Shown here one piece after another: positions 6,045-9,308 of a stretch of 64,000 nt of DNA. This stretch comes from Salegentibacter sp. 24 (GTDB taxonomy: Bacteria > Bacteroidota > Bacteroidia > Flavobacteriales > Flavobacteriaceae). Each line of letters begins with the position of its first letter. Positions within the stretch are counted from its first letter, which is position 1. The notes under the pieces were generated by a model that ran no database searches, was not told where the DNA came from, and was given only the letters and a program-made list of their open reading frames with translations. The stretch is taken from assembly GCF_004362395.1 (NCBI RefSeq), contig NZ_SNWE01000001.1, positions 1-64,000 on the forward strand, written 5' to 3'. The translations under genes and the position numbers were made by a program.

Positions 6045-6069
6045 CGGTTGCCTAAGCCGGCATTTTTTA
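6045..6069 (+). terminator. Rho-independent terminator of dxs-DUF3078
   Basis: GCCGG (6045-6049) pairs with CCGGC (6059-6063), extended by one G-U and one A-U pair around a five-base loop, followed at once by a run of six T. It starts a few bases after the DUF3078 stop. Confidence 0.85.
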
Positions 6070-7413
6070 CAATTTAATTCCTTTATATTTTTTAAATGAA
6101 GCAACTGTAAAACCATCGGTTAATGAAGCGGTATAGGAACAAATTTCCAATAAACGTCTGTAAATCGAATTCTCTTCCTGCAAATAATTTAAATGTGGCG
6201 CAGATTTTAAAACGAGTTGATTAAAGTTAGAATCTTCATGACCTTTCTTCGGAAGCAGCGCTTCCGTATAAGTGTCTAAAAGATGCGAGAGCATTTTATA
6301 ACCAGCAATTTCTTTACTAATCACCTCTTCGCTCTGGTAAATTTTTTCGATACTAATTTTAATAATATCGTCTATTTGAGCTTCATACTTGCTCTTATCC
6401 AACAAGCCTTGATGGAATTTTCCAGCAAGAATTGCCTCTTCATTTTTTAGAAAAGTTTCCACGGCTTCTGTTATTAAGGTATTTATGGCAAGTGCTCTTA
6501 AGTAGCTAAGCCTATCCGCTGTATTGGTAAGGCTATTATATTTGGTAGTATTTATTTTGTCTTTAACGAGTTTAATAAGATACTCCAACGCATAATCTTC
6601 CTCTATGAGCCCAAGATTTATACCATCTTCAAAATCGATAATGGTATAACAAATATCATCGGCAGCTTCAACCAAAAATGCCAGAGGGTGTCGATTATAA
6701 CTTGAATCTTTATTTTTTCCAGTCTCTAAAAGACCTAGTTCTACAGCCACTTCTTTAAAAATCTCTTTTTCAGTTTGAAAAAAACCAAATTTCTTGTCCG
6801 CTACATTTTGTGTGGGTTTATGCGGGAGGGATTCTTTGGGATATTTTATAAAAGCCCCCAGGGTGGCATAAGAAAGTCGAAGCCCGCCAGCGATTCCCGG
6901 TTTGTTCTGAGTAAGAATCTTAAAGCCATTGGCGTTTCCTTCAAATTTCACAAGATCTTGATATTCTTTTGAAGAAAGTTCATCTTTAAAACGTCTCCCA
7001 TTTCCGTGGCTAAAATATTCCCCGATAGCTTTTTCTCCAGAATGCCCAAAAGGAGGATTCCCTATATCGTGAGCGAGCGCGGCGGCAGCTACAATAGCTC
7101 CAAAATCATTCATTTTGTAAGCGTGTGTCTTTTCTAGTTGTGGGTGTTTTTCTAGAATTTTTTGGCCTGCTAGCCTGCCTAAAGATCGTCCCACTACTGA
7201 AACTTCTAAACTATGGGTTAAGCGGGTGTGAACAAAATCAGTTTTAGAAAGTGGAATCACCTGTGTTTTGTCCTGCAAACTCCTAAAAGGGGAAGAGAAT
7301 ATTATTCGGTCGTAATCTACTTCAAATCCTAAACGGGTTTCGTCCTGTTCTTTTCTCAACCTCTTATTTGTATCTCCAAAACGTTTTAAAGAAAGGAGTT
7401 GTTCCCAGTTCAT
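6067..7413 (-). CDS. dgt: dGTPase / deoxynucleotide triphosphohydrolase
   Basis: HD-superfamily hydrolase that converts dGTP (often other dNTPs too) to the deoxynucleoside and triphosphate. The ordered HD motifs are visible: FRSLQDKTQV, H in TRLTHSLEV, then AHDIGNPPFGHSGE, and a later EAADDICYTIIDFEDG block. The length (about 448 residues) fits the Dgt branch rather than short HD nucleotidases. The start is one of two adjacent ATG codons (7416 or 7413). It lies on the same strand as the R2-like gene upstream but is separated from it by a strong terminator and has its own candidate promoter at 7459-7466. The two genes side by side suggest dNTP-pool control. Confidence 0.92.
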   Translation of the reverse strand: MNWEQLLSLKRFGDTNKRLRKEQDETRLGFEVDYDRIIFSSPFRSLQDKTQVIPLSKTDFVHTRLTHSLEVSVVGRSLGRLAGQKILEKHPQLEKTHAYKMNDFGAIVAAAALAHDIGNPPFGHSGEKAIGEYFSHGNGRRFKDELSSKEYQDLVKFEGNANGFKILTQNKPGIAGGLRLSYATLGAFIKYPKESLPHKPTQNVADKKFGFFQTEKEIFKEVAVELGLLETGKNKDSSYNRHPLAFLVEAADDICYTIIDFEDGINLGLIEEDYALEYLIKLVKDKINTTKYNSLTNTADRLSYLRALAINTLITEAVETFLKNEEAILAGKFHQGLLDKSKYEAQIDDIIKISIEKIYQSEEVISKEIAGYKMLSHLLDTYTEALLPKKGHEDSNFNQLVLKSAPHLNYLQEENSIYRRLLEICSYTASLTDGFTVASFKKYKGIKL

Positions 7414-7458
7414 CATAATTTAATTCCTGTTTATAGTAGAAATTTCTAATTCTACTCC

Positions 7459-7466
7459 AAAAATAA
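7459..7466 (-). promoter_or_regulatory. Candidate -7 promoter element of dgt
   Basis: Read on the minus strand this is TATTTTTG, matching TAnnTTTG, about 45 bases before the dgt start and downstream of the terminator of the preceding gene. Confidence 0.45.
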
Positions 7467-7561
7467 AAAAAGCTATAAGAATATAAGCTAGAAGATTGCG
7501 AATTGCTGGAGGTAACTATGAGTTTTATTAACTGTTTTAATGAAGAAGCCCGGGGGGAGGC

Positions 7562-7617
7562 TTTAAAAAAAACTGAAACAAGACCACATTGGGGATCATG
7601 GCCCTTGTTTCAGTTTT
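7562..7617 (-). terminator. Strong terminator after the R2-like gene
   Basis: A perfect 14-bp inverted repeat, AAAACTGAAACAAG at 7569-7582 and its complement at 7604-7617, with a 21-base loop. On the minus strand the stem runs straight into a T tract. The stem overlaps the stop codon of the R2-like gene (7616-7618). Confidence 0.85.
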
Positions 7618-8551
7618 ATAAATCAGTATTTTTACTGATCTTACTAAATTTTTCGTCAGATTTACTACTGCTTGTAAAGTCTTTTGCTCGTTTTTCTAAT
7701 AGATTTTCTTTTGCCGCTTCTTCTGTATCCCAAATTTTGTCTACCATTAAATCTGTAAATAACCTGTTGCTTTCATAATCAAGATAATCGTTTAAAGACT
7801 TCGGTTTTAACCCAATTAAGTCCAGAGGGAGGAAATTAGCAATAACTTCTTTTTCTATAGCAACCGCTTCACTAATAATTTGAAAAACTTTTTTATCTGA
7901 AATATCCTCTGAAAGATGATTTCTAAATAACTGTGTAGCAAAATCGCGATGTAGGGCTTTATCCCGGTAAATCATTTCATAGGTATAACTAAGACCGGGC
8001 ATTAAGCCGCAGTTTTTAATCCAGAAAATCGCGGCAAAACCACCATAGGAAAAAATACTTTTGGCTGTGGCAAGAGCGACTAATTTCTCGGAAAATGAGT
8101 TGCTATTAGGCCATTTGCTTATCCAGTCTTCTCTTTTTGTGGTAGCTGGAAAATTTAAAACCTCCTTAAAAACTTCTTCCTGCTCGGTGCTGGTTAAAAA
8201 GGAATTCAAACAAATTCCATAAGCTTCTGTATGGGTATTTTCCATTACCACCTGCAAATCGAGAAAAGATTTTGCTTCTGGAAGCTTGATGTCTTCACTA
8301 AGTTTTTTGGTGGACTTTCCATTGAGGTTATGTTCCGTATGAAGTATTAAACCAATGATTTTATTTAGCAATAAACGTTTATCTTCACTTAATTCCTTTT
8401 GGTCTAATAAATCCTGATGAATATCTATAGCTCCTGAAGTCCAGAAATTCGCTTCAATTGCTTTATAAGAATCCCAAATATCATTGTGTTTTACAGGAAA
8501 AATTACAAATCGGTCTTTGTTATCCCGGAGTAGGGGTTCCTGTTTACTCAT
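7616..8551 (-). CDS. Ribonucleotide reductase R2-like protein with altered metal site
   Basis: A 311-residue ferritin-like protein clearly related to class I ribonucleotide reductase small subunits (FVIFPVKHNDIW, EANFWT, IFWIKNCGLMPGLSY). Aligned by motif to the mouse R2 family, it keeps Asp43, Glu104 and His107, the radical-type Tyr111 (ENTHTEAY), Trp26 and His201. The third and fourth carboxylate ligands, normally in AAVEGIFF and RDEGLH, are Lys164 (ATAKSIF) and Lys198 (RDKALH). The C-terminal tail has no Tyr or Trp where R2 proteins carry the radical-relay Tyr (EKRAKDF instead of EKRVGEY) and no recognisable R1-binding end. No nrdA, nrdE or nrdI gene is near. It may be a metal-free R2, a regulatory pseudoenzyme, or an R2-like oxidase; the usual NrdB role is doubtful. 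Confidence 0.85.
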   Translation of the reverse strand: MSKQEPLLRDNKDRFVIFPVKHNDIWDSYKAIEANFWTSGAIDIHQDLLDQKELSEDKRLLLNKIIGLILHTEHNLNGKSTKKLSEDIKLPEAKSFLDLQVVMENTHTEAYGICLNSFLTSTEQEEVFKEVLNFPATTKREDWISKWPNSNSFSEKLVALATAKSIFSYGGFAAIFWIKNCGLMPGLSYTYEMIYRDKALHRDFATQLFRNHLSEDISDKKVFQIISEAVAIEKEVIANFLPLDLIGLKPKSLNDYLDYESNRLFTDLMVDKIWDTEEAAKENLLEKRAKDFTSSSKSDEKFSKISKNTDL

Positions 8552-8953
8552 GAAAGCTAAAATTATGGGTTTTGGGTATAAACAAAGATTATGAAAAATT
8601 CTGATGTTGTTAATAATTGTTATTTAAGATATTCACAAAGTTTTCAACACAAAAAGCTGGGAATTAGTGTTTTGAACCTATTTTTCTGCTTTTTGTCGAT
8701 TTAGGATGTTATTTTGTTGAAAACTGGTAGATCAACAATTCTTAAAGACTGAAAGTAAAATTCATTTTTGGGTTTATCTGTAACCGAGCGGTTTTTCTCA
8801 GACGGTAAAGACCGGGTTATTTAATTACAATTATTTTCAATTTTAGGTATTCAGGAAAGCAAGGAAATTCTGGAAACGGATTTTAGTAAATCTAAGCTTC
8901 TGATACATTCCTTAGAACCGAATAATAATTAAATAAACAAAGATTTTGGTTAA
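8552..8953. other. 402-bp intergenic region with DnaA-box-like repeats
   Basis: No gene is seen. The stretch 8580-8740 holds AT-rich runs (TTGTTAATAATTG), an ATTCACAAA word, GTTTTCAACA at 8640-8649 and its exact reverse complement TGTTGAAAAC at 8715-8724, and a further ATCAACAAT. These resemble relaxed DnaA boxes. They could be promoter elements of the R2-like gene or part of a replication origin. Confidence 0.5.
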
Positions 8954-9308
8954 TTACATATTTGCGAACCACTTTTCAAATTGATGACCCAGAATGGGGA
9001 CTGGTTTTAATTTTTGGTTTATTGCATTTATAAGACCCATTATCCATAAATATAAAAGGAAAATAGATCCTAAAAAGCTCAGTACCCAACCTAAAATTGG
9101 GATCATGCCTATAATGAAAAGTCCCAAGCTAATTACTACAAAGTCCAAGGGATTGTTTGATGTGAAAACTTGCAAATTCATTCCTTTTGTCATTGTTTAA
9201 AACAAATGCCACTACAAGTCCAATTACAGTTAGATAAGCAATAATGGCTATAGTTTTAGGATCGAAAGTGCTCCTGGTTTCTTTATTTTGTGCGTTTGAG
9301 TTCTCCAT
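8954..9308 (-). pseudogene. DUF4870-family (Tic20-like) membrane protein, frameshifted
   Basis: Two overlapping reading frames together make one protein. The first runs from MENSNAQ (start 9308) to HIKQSLGL. The second continues with VVISLGLFIIGMIPILGWVL and ends with PVPILGHQFEKWF, the normal C-terminus of the family. The first frame hits a stop a few codons after the break. Removing one A from the AAA run at 9140-9142 would join them as SLGLVVISLGLF. The protein would have three hydrophobic segments. It follows the DUF4412 gene by 10 bp in an operon. It may be a true mutation or a one-base sequence error; programmed slippage is less likely, as the site has no known slippery motif. Confidence 0.75.

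Follow-up and report, generated by a model that had tools for sequence, protein, structure and literature searches.

In ribonucleotide reductase the R2 protein is known for generating a radical in association with an R1. Yeast Rnr4 has an R2 fold in which the iron ligands have been lost, and it pairs with its canonical paralogue Rnr2 and with an R1. Class Ie R2 proteins carry V or Q in place of E115 and P or S in place of E204; positions here and below follow the numbering of E. coli R2 (D84, E115, H118, Y122, E204, E238, H241). As described in the class Ie literature (PMC11846895, PMC8902622, PMC7615503, PMC8463856), this class, in which metal glutamates are substituted and position E238 is occupied by Lys, descends from class Ib and is active in conjunction with NrdI and an R1. 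PMC3824934, from which the ligand list of yeast R2 was also taken, deals with two further cases, namely Apicomplexan R2_e2, a non-canonical R2 without the C-terminal Tyr that nevertheless keeps the iron ligands and the C-terminal motif and occurs together with a canonical R2, and R2lox, in which the R2 fold operates outside ribonucleotide reduction with a Glu at the D84 position and a retained Mn/Fe site. The eukaryote-like class Ia family is argued in PMC3019208 to have reached Bacteroidetes by transfer from eukaryotes. Searches of the open-licence literature found no description of an orphan or pseudo-R2 and nothing on point concerning a decoy R2 subunit, so that an R2 pseudo-subunit without its R1, having a job undescribed in that literature, is probably new.

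The protein considered here is encoded in a stretch of 64,000 nucleotides of Salegentibacter sp. 24, analysed as a whole and hereafter called the window. The open reading frame at 7616..8551 (minus strand) specifies an R2-like protein (pseudo-NrdB) of 311 amino acids that matches Pfam PF00268 with 224 bits and is hence an R2 homologue; its best relatives among PDB sequences are human, mouse and yeast R2, and the solved folds nearest to its AF2 model (mean pLDDT 77.4, 31 alignment rows) are those of human and mouse R2, with a TM of ~0.76 by query length. Fourteen orphan sequences were compared, ten of them forming clade A (window included), three forming clade B and one coming from G277, a genome of another genus. 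The clade B orphan of genome G003 also yields a helical model, although of lower confidence (70.2), and the tails are modeled with low confidence. Identity between the window protein and canonical R2 is 36–41% in 25 relatives' genomes and 31% in G047; it amounts to 33–37% with clade B and to 35–41% with most canonical R2. Judged by its sequence, the product is a Salegentibacter homologue of class Ia (eukaryote-like) R2/NrdB. Both family and fold are those of a functioning class Ia R2, whereas its other attributes are lacking: of the six dimetal ligands (D/E, E, H, E, E, H) those at E204 and E238 are replaced by K, the relay Tyr356 is Phe292, and no cognate class Ia R1 was found in the genome, whose R1 genes are NrdJ and NrdE-prime. 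Since family scans see an RNR beta subunit, annotation is likely to name the orphan an active R2, very probably wrongly. Identity with R2lox was rejected, the NCBIfam R2lox model giving 26.6 bits against a cut-off of 194; the Glu at the D84 position is common to the two proteins, but the Mn/Fe site kept by R2lox contrasts with the changed ligands of the orphan.

The origin of the gene can be read from its surroundings. Genome G021 has the genes arranged as marC-DUF3109-nrdB-nrdA-dgt-...-DUF3078; its congener G428 differs in that DUF4412 and one more gene precede nrdB. The Salegentibacter order is marC-DUF3109-(DUF4412...)-R2-dgt-DUF3078, with nrdA missing between R2 and dgt. The R2-dgt junction (7417..7615) corresponds to the place of nrdA in G021 and G428, and a tblastn search with G021 NrdA as the query (E up to 1) matched no nrdA remnant there or at the other orphan junctions searched (13/14, all but that of G014). 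The dgt gene (6067..7416, minus strand; NCBIfam NF002205, 443 bits vs a cut-off of 439) would be the ancestral neighbor beyond the deleted nrdA. By gene order and sequence the orphan R2 is the ancestral nrdB, still at its original location, nrdA having since been deleted. It is, by the same two marks, an orthologue of flavobacterial class Ia NrdB, whose fold it shares, but it differs from that protein in being without nrdA, in having Lys in place of E204 and E238 and Glu in place of D84, in lacking Y356, in its changed tail and in its faster evolution. The earlier note was right that neither nrdA nor nrdE adjoins the gene at this locus and that dgt does; the adjacency to dgt, however, is a remnant of the ancestral nrdB-nrdA-dgt order, and the two genes are separated by a terminator-like hairpin followed by a T-run at the end of R2 (7560..7618, minus strand; MFE −22.2 kcal/mol, z −4.8), similar hairpins being seen by eye in the R2-dgt junctions of relatives. 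A functional R2-dgt operon was set aside in view of this hairpin and of the nrdA deletion, which explains the order. The link with dgt is not universal: G015, G349 and G288 have nrdA next after nrdB, and no dgt was seen in the region inspected.

Upstream of the gene, 98 bases before the start codon, lies the element TGTTGAAAAC (8640..8649, minus strand), common to many canonical nrdB upstream regions, and the motif search revealed a second, inverted copy at 8715..8724 (plus strand). This 10-mer occurs twice in the 64 kb of the window, both times before R2, and 28 times in the whole genome, compared with 13 sites for a reversed control, the pair upstream of R2 being the only one within 100 bases. 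It resembles a DnaA box, but the 28 genomic sites show no clustering of the kind expected at an origin. In 13/13 Salegentibacter orphans the form TGTTGAAAA is found 98–108 bases before the start codon, and 28 of 53 canonical nrdB rows, a set enriched for close relatives, have it at a similar distance; it is absent upstream of the G277 orphan, and the element precedes none of the seven R2 genes that are partners of NrdE-prime. A variant, TGTTGATAA, is present upstream of five of the six NrdJ genes. A longer, 21-base form of the element has no match in the window, nor did an Rfam scan of the window give any.

For the putative metal site the comparison was with canonical flavobacterial R2, represented by 52 distinct alignment rows from the loci retrieved, which are not a random sample. 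Ligand positions are altered in all 14 orphans and in none of the 52 canonical rows. Lys198 (codon 7958..7960, this and the following codons being on the minus strand) stands at the E238 position and is Lys in 14/14 orphans, the canonical residue being Glu in 52/52; Lys164 (8060..8062), at the E204 position, is Lys in 10/10 clade A sequences and Asn in 3/3 of clade B, with Glu in G277 and in 52/52 canonical rows. Glu104 (8240..8242, E115) is the sole ligand unchanged across the 14 orphans. His107 (8231..8233, H118) is retained in clade A and G277 and is Tyr in two and His in one of the clade B proteins; His201 (7949..7951, H241) is retained in 13/14, G277 having Gln; and Tyr111 (8219..8221, Y122), the position of the radical Tyr of canonical R2, is Tyr in clade A and G277 and Phe in 3/3 of clade B. 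The earlier note had placed both lysines at glutamate positions of R2 and had listed Glu104, His107, His201 and Tyr111 as kept, and in all this the alignment agrees with it. Its remaining ligand, Asp43, was a mistake: this is a conserved Asp at another place, outside the metal site, and the D84 column aligns with residue 73 (8333..8335), which is Glu in 10/10 of clade A, Gln in 3/3 of clade B, His in G277 and Asp in 52/52 canonical rows, so that the site in the window reads E/E/H/K/K/H. The suggestion of a changed dimetal site in which ion pairs may have replaced the metals stands, with Glu73 at D84 instead of Asp43 as the acidic partner.

In clade A the site, including the tyrosine, is E/E/H/Y/K/K/H without exception in ten sequences; the seven positions are all invariant, as against 48 of 91 in the four site helices (P 0.009), and the invariance of both lysines in 10/10 argues that they are not due to chance. 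In clade B (n = 3) the site is Q/E/(Y, H, Y)/F/N/K/H, so that the two clades have few site residues in common and no single new site chemistry is conserved. Both lysine codons in the window (164 and 198) are AAA, and since GAA → AAA is one transition, the Lys common to Salegentibacter and G277 may reflect mutational ease and not function. The F208 position of the hydrophobic pocket is occupied in clade A by Ser (8), Thr (1) or Asn (1). The E/E/H/H set could, lysines notwithstanding, still hold one metal ion.

At the position of the radical-relay Tyr356, Phe292 (7676..7678, minus strand) is found, as the earlier note had noticed; the residue is F or L in 13/14 orphans, Y in that of G004, and Y in 52/52 canonical rows. 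On the other hand, to call the R1-binding tail unrecognisable was too strong, since KISKNTDL of the window protein aligns with the canonical KISFDADF, although the tail is indeed changed. The motif KISxxTD is exact in 10/13 Salegentibacter orphans, seven of them among the ten of clade A, four of whose tails stop at TD; the motif is absent from G277. When the consensus sequences of clades A and B are compared, residues 8–38, the N-terminal arm, are 71% alike and the last nine residues 78%, with 21–48% elsewhere, arm and tail being the segments most alike between the two. The radical storage that the earlier note had entertained is disfavored by three features: the radical Tyr is Phe in clade B, the F208 pocket position is Ser, Thr or Asn in clade A, and Y356 is gone from 13/14 orphans; the regulatory role named beside it may hold.

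An open orphan R2 is present in 13 of the 15 Salegentibacter genomes, that of the window included, and the gene has been lost from G006 and G010, indicating that it is dispensable; at these two loci (L164, L165) there is neither nrdA nor R2, and DUF4412 and dgt are retained. No stop codon interrupts any of the 14 orphan sequences. Pairwise dN/dS is 0.06–0.16 in clade A (nine of the ten genomes, without G014) and 0.11–0.15 in clade B, compared with 0.02–0.05 for dgt of the same genomes (again without G014); dS is saturated in many clade A pairs, and the close pair G009-G008 (dS 0.44) gives a value of 0.135. The one-ratio maximum-likelihood omega is 0.102 for clade A (10 rows), 0.029 for dgt (9 rows) and 0.006 for canonical R2 (8 rows), the last a rough figure in view of very long branches; the clade A value, ~3.5 times that of dgt, points to a relaxed constraint. 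These values show purifying selection on the orphan R2, which can hardly be a pseudogene in decay. In the tree the branches connecting clades A and B are long, and the program issued a warning about this; the shared nrdA deletion, Lys198 and tail favor one degeneration inside Salegentibacter over two.

To look for further cases, even samples of larger groups were searched, comprising 397 genomes in the family and 395 in the order; judgement was by per-genome scores, by which orphans scoring like a canonical R2 would be missed. Six low scorers of the family were followed up, namely the G277 orphan, G349, G288 and the fragment in G197, all three with nrdA alongside, and partial matches in G117 and G093; among the low scorers of the order, G714 and G464 were left out of the follow-up and G673 and G763 lie at contig ends. 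A scan of viral contigs found no relative of the orphan R2. In G277, whose genome is a single contig listed as 100% complete, the R2 gene (L162:8998-9960) is followed directly by dgt, without nrdA, and the R1 matches of this genome are one full-length and one short protein, which by their sizes alone fall in the NrdJ and NrdE-prime range. In the dgt tree G277 is the sister of G428, which retains nrdB-nrdA, with G021 outside (support 100/97). The G277 protein has Lys for E238, Gln for H241, His for D84 and Phe at Y356, and has lost the tail; its R2 dN against G428 is 0.24, compared with 0.02 for G021-G428, which implies fast change after orphaning. By the branching of the dgt tree, the orphaning in G277 is to be regarded as independent of that in Salegentibacter, and as accompanied once more by a change of E238 to Lys.

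The window genome has two R1 genes, the B12-dependent NrdJ (TIGR02504, 579 bits, cut-off 400) and a short NrdE-prime (TIGR02510, 731 bits, cut-off 602); the latter, on contig 35, has its own adjoining R2, which is the only other R2 of the genome and is distant from the orphan. In G003 (listed as 100% complete, in ~20 contigs) NrdJ is the only R1 match, no class I R1 being found, and the orphan is the only R2 match. The separate canonical R2 for which the earlier note proposed to look is accordingly present in the window genome and absent from G003. NrdI was found in none of the 15 genus genomes by a search that was positive in the controls E. coli, B. subtilis and L. lactis. In G010 there are two NrdE-prime R1 matches, and the R2 match beside one of them (L108, G010:C1:11430-12098) has two internal stop codons.

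The explanation that we favor, with a probability of about 0.7 for the whole of it, is that the ancestral nrdB was orphaned by deletion of nrdA and has been kept as a metal-free pseudo-R2 that binds another protein. Deletion of nrdA would have left the class Ia nrdB alone, ribonucleotide reduction being taken over by the class II enzyme NrdJ, joined in the majority of the genomes by the NrdE-prime/R2 pair, which we infer to be class Id-like. The orphan protein would keep the helical-bundle fold of R2 without a dimetal center, the former site presumably being filled by ion pairs, Glu73-Lys198 and Glu104-Lys164 in clade A and Glu104-Lys198 in clade B. It would supply no radical to an R1, such a supply being very unlikely given the lack of Y356 and of a matching R1 and the cationic character of the metal site, and would act instead by binding another protein through the conserved N-terminal arm and C-terminal tail, probably in DNA-precursor metabolism, as the retention of the upstream nrdB element suggests. 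The parts of this explanation deserve different degrees of confidence. That the protein is an orphaned, non-radical-generating R2 under selection is highly probable; that its role is one of binding or regulation is put forward tentatively, and any partner named for it is more doubtful still. A conserved, metal-free pseudo-R2 that has outlived its R1 probably describes the protein best. If so, an R2 has here been selected for without its R1, offering a natural opportunity to test the capabilities of an R2 fold that has neither metal nor radical nor R1, and an instance of piecemeal replacement of an essential enzyme, in which the large subunit is lost and the small one stays.

The Lys at E238 invites a different reading, namely a metal-free but radical-making R2 in the manner of class Ie, in which Lys would stand for the metal, the radical would reside on a modified tyrosine and NrdE-prime would be the partner R1. 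Lys198 corresponds to the Lys213 that class Ie has together with His216 and Tyr126 (PMC8902622), and clade A keeps Tyr111, His107 and His201 as well as an acidic residue at D84; yet the relay tyrosine is lost in 13/14 orphans, the radical Tyr is Phe in clade B and F208 is Ser, Thr or Asn in clade A, NrdI was not found in 15/15 genus genomes (G277 lay outside this search), G003 is without a class I R1, and NrdE-prime of the window genome already has an R2 at its side, so that this reading is most improbable. Identity with class Ie itself was rejected: in agreement with the earlier note, neither the VPK nor the QSK set matches, Glu104 and Lys164 being found where V/Q and P/S would be, and descent is from NrdB, by gene order, and not from NrdF, whose NCBIfam model gives 56.5 bits vs 355. 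A loss of ligands within an R2 fold is likewise what Rnr4 shows, and Rnr4 is in fact among both the sequence matches (1jk0_B) and the fold matches (1sms_A, 1jk0_B; PDB 1sms and 1jk0 chain B), whence the alternative of a heterodimer with another R2 whose assembly the orphan would aid. However, the only other R2 of the window genome is the distant protein of contig 35, and G003 has neither a canonical R2 paralogue for the orphan to pair with nor a matching R1; a partnership of this type thus seems scarcely credible.

Loss of the gene in G006 and G010, evolution faster than that of dgt and of canonical R2, the divergent site residues of clade B and a G277 copy that stands alone with its tail gone would all be expected of a functionless relic in slow decay, open by chance. 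Such a relic is nonetheless quite unlikely, given an omega of ~0.1 in both clades, reading frames that are open in all 14 orphans, the invariance of the clade A site, and the retention of the promoter element and most of the tail across the A-B divergence; moreover, when the G277 gene was evolved neutrally in simulation through 150 nonsynonymous changes, a number that is our own estimate of its divergence, the mean was 7.8 stops and 0/1000 runs were stop-free. If selection has preserved docking surfaces after the host R1 of class Ia type had gone, these need another target, and one candidate is the R1 of an invading flavophage, a protein of the class Ia family like the NrdA that the host has lost, on which the orphan would dock as a decoy subunit and poison the phage enzyme. 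NrdA of the Tenacibaculum phages pT24 and Larrie and of Cellulophaga phages is, among the best matches listed, 53–62% identical to G021 NrdA, and the tail of the orphan is partly retained; but two phage R2 tails end in LDF and DDF and not in TDL, four of the ten clade A tails stop at TD, the orphan R2 matches no PADLOC model, and the phages compared infect Tenacibaculum and Cellulophaga and none of them Salegentibacter. The decoy is therefore very unlikely as it stands, although, if true, the binding of a phage R1 would be an unsuspected kind of defense. The wider proposition that an R2 has been re-used as a metal-free binding protein, either a poison of flavophage class Ia R1 or a regulator of NrdJ, by a route repeated independently in a second genus with E238 again changed to Lys, is an unlikely one too. 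Returning to the pseudo-R2 that we favor, its distance from R2_e2 is also evident, the C-terminal Tyr being absent from both and the Apicomplexan protein differing in its retained iron ligands and C-terminal motif and in being accompanied by a canonical R2 (PMC3824934).

Some minor observations concern the phages and the neighboring genes. Phages pT24 and Larrie (L179, L180) encode NrdA and NrdB proteins that belong to class Ia and to the flavobacterial host type, and the ligands of their R2 are the canonical ones. The dgt product (6067-7416, minus strand) matches the PADLOC dGTPase defence model with 217 bits; with the NCBIfam anti-phage dGTPase model it scores 172, under the cut-off of 400, and it passes the ordinary dGTPase model. 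Between DUF4412 and R2 lies a small membrane-protein-like gene of 117–118 amino acids (8957-9308, minus strand), for which the Pfam matches TctB and DUF4870 are below the cut-offs. In the window this gene is broken into two reading frames, whereas 11 of the remaining 12 Salegentibacter orphan loci have it intact; in G013 it was not found.
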